Assembly: GCA_035540635.1 (NCBI GenBank)
Contig: DATLGH010000019.1
Span: 1-64,000, forward strand
Reading direction: 5' to 3'
Source of the DNA: Egibacteraceae bacterium
GTDB taxonomy: Bacteria; Actinomycetota; Nitriliruptoria; Euzebyales; Egibacteraceae
DNA length: 64,000 bases
Shown piece after piece: positions 11,409 to 11,446 of this stretch; position 1 is the stretch's first letter, and each line of letters begins with the position of its first letter. The translations under genes were made by a program, and so were the position numbers. The notes below the pieces were generated by a model. The model saw nothing but the letters and a program-made list of their open reading frames with translations. It did not search any database and was not told the DNA's origin.

Positions 11409-11446
11409 GTTACCCCATGGTCAGGCAGGTGTTTCGCGCTCGTTAC
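11409..11446 (-). promoter_or_regulatory. GlnR-type operator upstream of glnB-glnD
   Basis: On the minus strand four half-sites follow each other with exact 11-bp periodicity: GTAAC (11442-11446), GAAAC (11431-11435), CTGAC (11420-11424), GTAAC (11409-11413). The first pair is a perfect match to the GlnR a-site gTnAc-n6-GaAAc known from Streptomyces and mycobacteria. The second pair is a weaker b-site, with GTAAC where GAAAC is expected. The site overlaps the stop codon of the FIST gene and is 58 bases from the glnB start, an activator-like position. Confidence 0.7.

Follow-up and report, generated by a model that had tools for sequence, protein, structure and literature searches.

A predicted GlnR box pair with fixed promoter geometry upstream of glnB-glnD in an Egibacteraceae bacterium

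In the 64,000-nucleotide stretch of Egibacteraceae DNA that we analyzed (the window), the genes for the PII protein and its modifying enzyme lie on the minus strand, and an element of four half-sites (minus strand, 11446-11409), GTAACgagcgcGAAACacctgcCTGACcatgggGTAAC, is found upstream of the PII gene. The locus is laid out as follows.

11443..12621, minus strand: FIST-domain gene (Pfam FIST and FIST_C), directly upstream and outside the control element
11442..11446, minus strand: half-site 1 (a1), GTAAC, read from the sequence; includes the TAA stop codon of the FIST gene
11431..11435, minus strand: half-site 2 (b1), GAAAC, the most strongly conserved of the four
11420..11424, minus strand: half-site 3 (a2), CTGAC, the weakest of the four, with A4 and C5 retained
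11409..11413, minus strand: half-site 4 (b2), GTAAC, from sequence and conservation
11393..11398, minus strand: predicted -10 hexamer, CATCCT, 10 nt past half-site 4, from column counts and a spacing scan
11385..11387, minus strand: predicted transcription start, ~7 nt past the -10 hexamer and placed from its position
11357..11364, minus strand: ribosome-binding site, GGGAGGAA, read from the sequence
11013..11351, minus strand: glnB/glnK, PII protein (Pfam P-II, 105 bits), the sole PII gene found genome-wide
8491..10902, minus strand: glnD, PII uridylyl/adenylyltransferase (TIGR01693, 540 bits, above the cut-off); its true start may lie further upstream than 10902

Re-reading the minus strand from 11446 to 11409 confirmed what an earlier sequence-only reading had reported, namely that GTAAC, GAAAC, CTGAC and GTAAC follow one another exactly 11 nt apart, with gagcgc, acctgc and catggg between them; the PII start codon (11351) lies 57 nt past the end of this 38-bp element. 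In the published nomenclature, GTAAC is an a-site and GAAAC a b-site, and an a+b pair makes one GlnR box (PMC10704036). The first pair had been called a perfect GlnR a-site, and whereas the exact match to gTnAc-n6-GaAAc stands, the term does not, since the pair is one box composed of an a-site and a b-site. The second box, CTGAC-n6-GTAAC, is imperfect, and it retains A4 and C5. The adenine at position 4, which is invariant in GlnR boxes and whose importance has been reported (PMC10704036), is present in all four half-sites. The features by which GlnR boxes are recognized, that is, tandem gTnAc-n6-GaAAc boxes in an 11-bp register, a nitrogen gene downstream on the coding strand with a -10 hexamer in fixed register, and a cognate GlnR within the same genome (C99:8726-9439), were all found for the glnB element.

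The scan of the 3.46-Mb genome that the sequence-only reading had proposed for the 38-bp pattern returned the glnB element as the sole exact match, together with three matches carrying two mismatches, one of which directly precedes glnA; because the search pattern was partly written from the glnB element itself, this count is not independent. With up to two mismatches, the pattern occurred once in the window versus 0.01 times expected from dinucleotide shuffles, and a reversed-pattern control at the same tolerance gave no match in the 3.46-Mb genome. The first pair alone (GTNAC-n6-GNAAC) is unremarkable, at 0.67 expected occurrences per window. Exact GTNAC-n6-GNAAC-n6-GTNAC had no match anywhere in the genome because the third half-site is CTGAC, and the shorter GTNAC-n6-GAAAC had 10 matches, the glnB element and glnA among them; the others that were examined had no recognizable adjoining nitrogen-assimilation gene. 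Since the search pattern had been shaped in part on the glnB element, a cleaner test was provided by a sequence-only model trained on the glnB promoter sites of 21 relatives, with the glnB element excluded. This model ranked the glnB element first in the genome (E = 2.6e-7), followed by glnA (0.0076) and amtB (0.025), with the next hit at 0.5, all of these E-values being rough. Hits below rank 3 were weak and lay mostly inside gene-like reading frames, and we took them to be chance matches.

We fetched 30 glnD loci, in 28 of which the region before the PII gene was readable. The best four-half-site score reached at least 12.8 in 26 of these 28 glnB-glnD loci (our own included), on the coding strand and 90-197 nt before PII, versus a single unrelated 400-nt stretch reaching 12.5 among 732 strand-windows taken away from the glnB promoter in the same loci; the half-site score is home-made, and its cut-offs were chosen after the data had been seen. 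Degenerate sites were found in the remaining two loci, L020 (genome G009) and L021 (genome G007; boxes 3 and 4 weak). The L020 site scores higher on the opposite strand and is possibly an inverted or decaying box. Across 24 aligned loci, T2, A4 and C5 of half-site 1 were invariant, as were G1, A3, A4 and C5 of half-site 2 (24/24) and G1, A4 and C5 of half-site 4 (24/24). The columns of half-site 3 were weak except for A4 (23/24) and C5 (19/24); the amtB promoter of S. coelicolor likewise has an atypical a2, which it can do without (PMC5826061).

The -10 hexamer had played no part in site selection. Nevertheless, 10 nt after half-site 4, A2 and T6 of this hexamer were each present in 22 of the 24 aligned loci, and a spacing scan of 27 glnB loci placed an A2/T6 hexamer at 10 nt in 22 and at 11 nt in 5. 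The same spacing recurred at amtB, with the hexamer at 10 nt in 24/25 loci and, in other actinobacteria, at 10 nt in 14/18 promoters and at 11 nt in 4/18. Other spacings were almost empty, save for a cluster at 19-20 nt in the amtB set. The genome's own glnA and amtB promoters likewise have 10 nt to TAGGGT and TACCGT, respectively.

Elsewhere in the window, only one other place scored at least 12.5 with a correctly spaced -10 hexamer, and simulation of 40 windows produced no such site. This second candidate precedes the molybdopterin oxidoreductase gene of a nitrate/nitrite assimilation cluster (28033-35100), whose other members are an MFS transporter, a HemD-Trans_reg_C protein (NnaR-like), a nitrite/sulfite reductase and a Rieske protein.

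30187..30224, minus strand: second candidate GlnR site, TTCACcgcgccGACACgttcgaCCAACccgcgcGAAAC, of the same geometry, followed by 10 nt and TACCGT (30171-30176)
28033..30162, minus strand: nitrate-reductase-like molybdopterin oxidoreductase (Pfam Molybdopterin, 161 bits, and Molybdop_Fe4S4), downstream of the second site

The narK-nnaR-nir neighborhood suggests that the product of 28033..30162 is a nitrate reductase. In Streptomyces, NnaR is a coregulator with GlnR of nitrate/nitrite assimilation (PMC10704036; PMC11162112). The TACCGT hexamer is very near the ATG at 30162, and the transcript may be leaderless. No GlnR box was found in this genome between narK and nnaR, before glnD or before glnR itself.

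The sequence-only reading had seen no glnR in the window and had named its absence from the genome as one outcome that would undo the proposal. That outcome is excluded, as a search of the genome found a single GlnR gene (contig C99, 8726-9439). Its protein matches Pfam GlnR_1st at 109 bits (cut-off, 27), has 8hih as its best PDB match (245 bits) and carries both Pfam domains expected of a GlnR, a GlnR-type receiver and a Trans_reg_C domain with the GlnR recognition region, the latter judged by comparison with 8hih. It departs from the Asp50-with-Arg52 pattern, in that the Asp is present and Arg52 is replaced by Thr (Asp-Ala-Thr); two residues past the receiver Asp, where 8hih has Arg, this protein and nearly all of the aligned relatives have Thr, and one has Ser (L058, L059-L087). 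Arg52 and Asp50 have been reported to be important for the homodimer conformation of Amycolatopsis GlnR and are not family defining (PMC10704036), and a GlnR lacking Arg52 could differ in dimerization or signal input. Of 33 genomes (our own included) with a completeness of 90% or more and a contamination of 5% or less, 30 encode GlnR. One genome (G005) has glnR with no glnD or amtB found, and in another (G022, 2.1 Mb), none of glnR, glnD and amtB was found.

We conclude that the 38-bp element is very probably a tandem GlnR box pair (a1-b1-a2-b2) and the predicted promoter of the glnB-glnD operon, a reading supported by the glnR gene, the class-wide conservation, the fixed -10 spacing and the regulon context. 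The off-consensus third half-site, the Arg52-to-Thr change, the degenerate site at L020 and the weak one at L021 count against it. The tie between PII/GlnD and GlnR-type nitrogen control that had been proposed from the window thus gains support, from the presence of glnR in the genome, the conservation of the site across the class and the relatives-only model, and probably holds.

A different member of the OmpR family that recognizes 11-bp direct repeats (PhoP/PhoB-like or MtrA-like) might instead bind the element, alone or in competition with GlnR: the genome encodes seven further strong Trans_reg_C proteins, and at some targets PhoP and MtrA reportedly compete with GlnR (PMC11162112). We consider this very unlikely, however, as the motif matches the GlnR consensus and the top genome hits of the model (glnB, glnA and amtB) are all nitrogen genes. 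Chance clustering of GNNAC pentamers at a stop codon is less probable still, and its probability is minimal; although the first pair alone is not rare, the expectation for four half-sites is that given above, and the class conservation, the -10 spacing (which played no part in picking sites) and the footprint across relatives contradict it.

The element might also belong to the 3' end of the FIST gene, as a terminator or processing site unrelated to glnB, and it does straddle the FIST stop codon, as had been noted, with TAA (11443-11445) falling within the first GTAAC. The upstream gene varies among relatives, many of which have a different gene in place of FIST, and in 9/27 loci the TAA within half-site 1 closes an open frame lying upstream; we therefore regard the overlap as incidental. 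Moreover, the element is kept where an NYN-like or other gene replaces FIST, the distance to the upstream stop varies, and a conserved -10 hexamer comes after the element, so that a role in ending the FIST transcript is as improbable as chance. On this evidence, we rejected all three alternatives to a GlnR box pair.

On the GlnR reading, four GlnR subunits, made from the gene on contig C99, would bind the four half-sites head-to-tail. Counted from the predicted -10 hexamer, the half-sites would span about -60 to -23, so that bound GlnR would overlie the -35 region and bring RNA polymerase to the hexamer (11398-11393). When nitrogen is limiting, levels of PII and of its modifying enzyme would then rise along with those of glnA and amtB. 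We infer the binding, the activation, the direction of the response and the transcription start at glnB. In the published GlnR activation complex (8hih; Shi et al. 2023, as summarized in PMC10704036), four half-sites are bound head-to-tail in one promoter; the glnB element likewise has four conserved half-sites, and 8hih is the best structural match of our GlnR. The two differ in the receiver residue, Arg52 in 8hih versus Thr in this class, and GlnR here is known from its sequence.

GlnR control of PII genes is known biology and the layout is standard; what is new, and well supported, is its predicted occurrence in this actinobacterial lineage. We found no report of GlnR for the class in the open-access literature searched, Euzebya and Acidimicrobiia included. 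These results would add this class to the lineages in which GlnR controls PII/GlnD, and would do so with a defined promoter geometry; the fixed -10 spacing supplies a sharp criterion by which GlnR-activated promoters may be predicted in other genomes. Tandem a-b-a-b boxes are also known from actinobacterial glnA promoters, which differ from the glnB element in their target gene; the genome's own glnA has such a promoter with the same -10 spacing.

The amtB promoters of Streptomyces and mycobacteria share with the glnB element coding-strand half-sites at 11-bp spacing and a -10 hexamer 10-11 nt past the last of them. The amtB-glnK-glnD system likewise controls PII and GlnD, and a weak a2 is common to S. 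coelicolor amtB and the element described here; S. coelicolor amtB has three boxes, however, versus two at glnB. Among the loci examined from Streptomyces, Mycobacterium and other actinobacteria, most have their boxes in front of amtB in an amtB-glnK-glnD run and none in front of PII, whereas here amtB, of which the genome has one copy, lies outside the operon and the boxes stand directly before glnB. Among the relatives listed for the class, amtB is far from glnD or on another contig, and a separate box precedes amtB in 24/28; a Nitriliruptoraceae locus (L088) has a box before PII and no amtB found within the locus, and from it the class would be Nitriliruptoria. It is conceivable, though only tentatively so, that in this deep actinobacterial class amtB stands apart from the PII operon while both units have one promoter architecture in common (four GlnR half-sites with a -10 hexamer 10-11 nt beyond them), and that a GlnR without Arg52 is switched differently. 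At one locus (L016:1-2718), a glutamine-synthetase-like gene lies directly after amtB, and the two may form an operon of the amtB-glnA type served by a GlnR box of its own.
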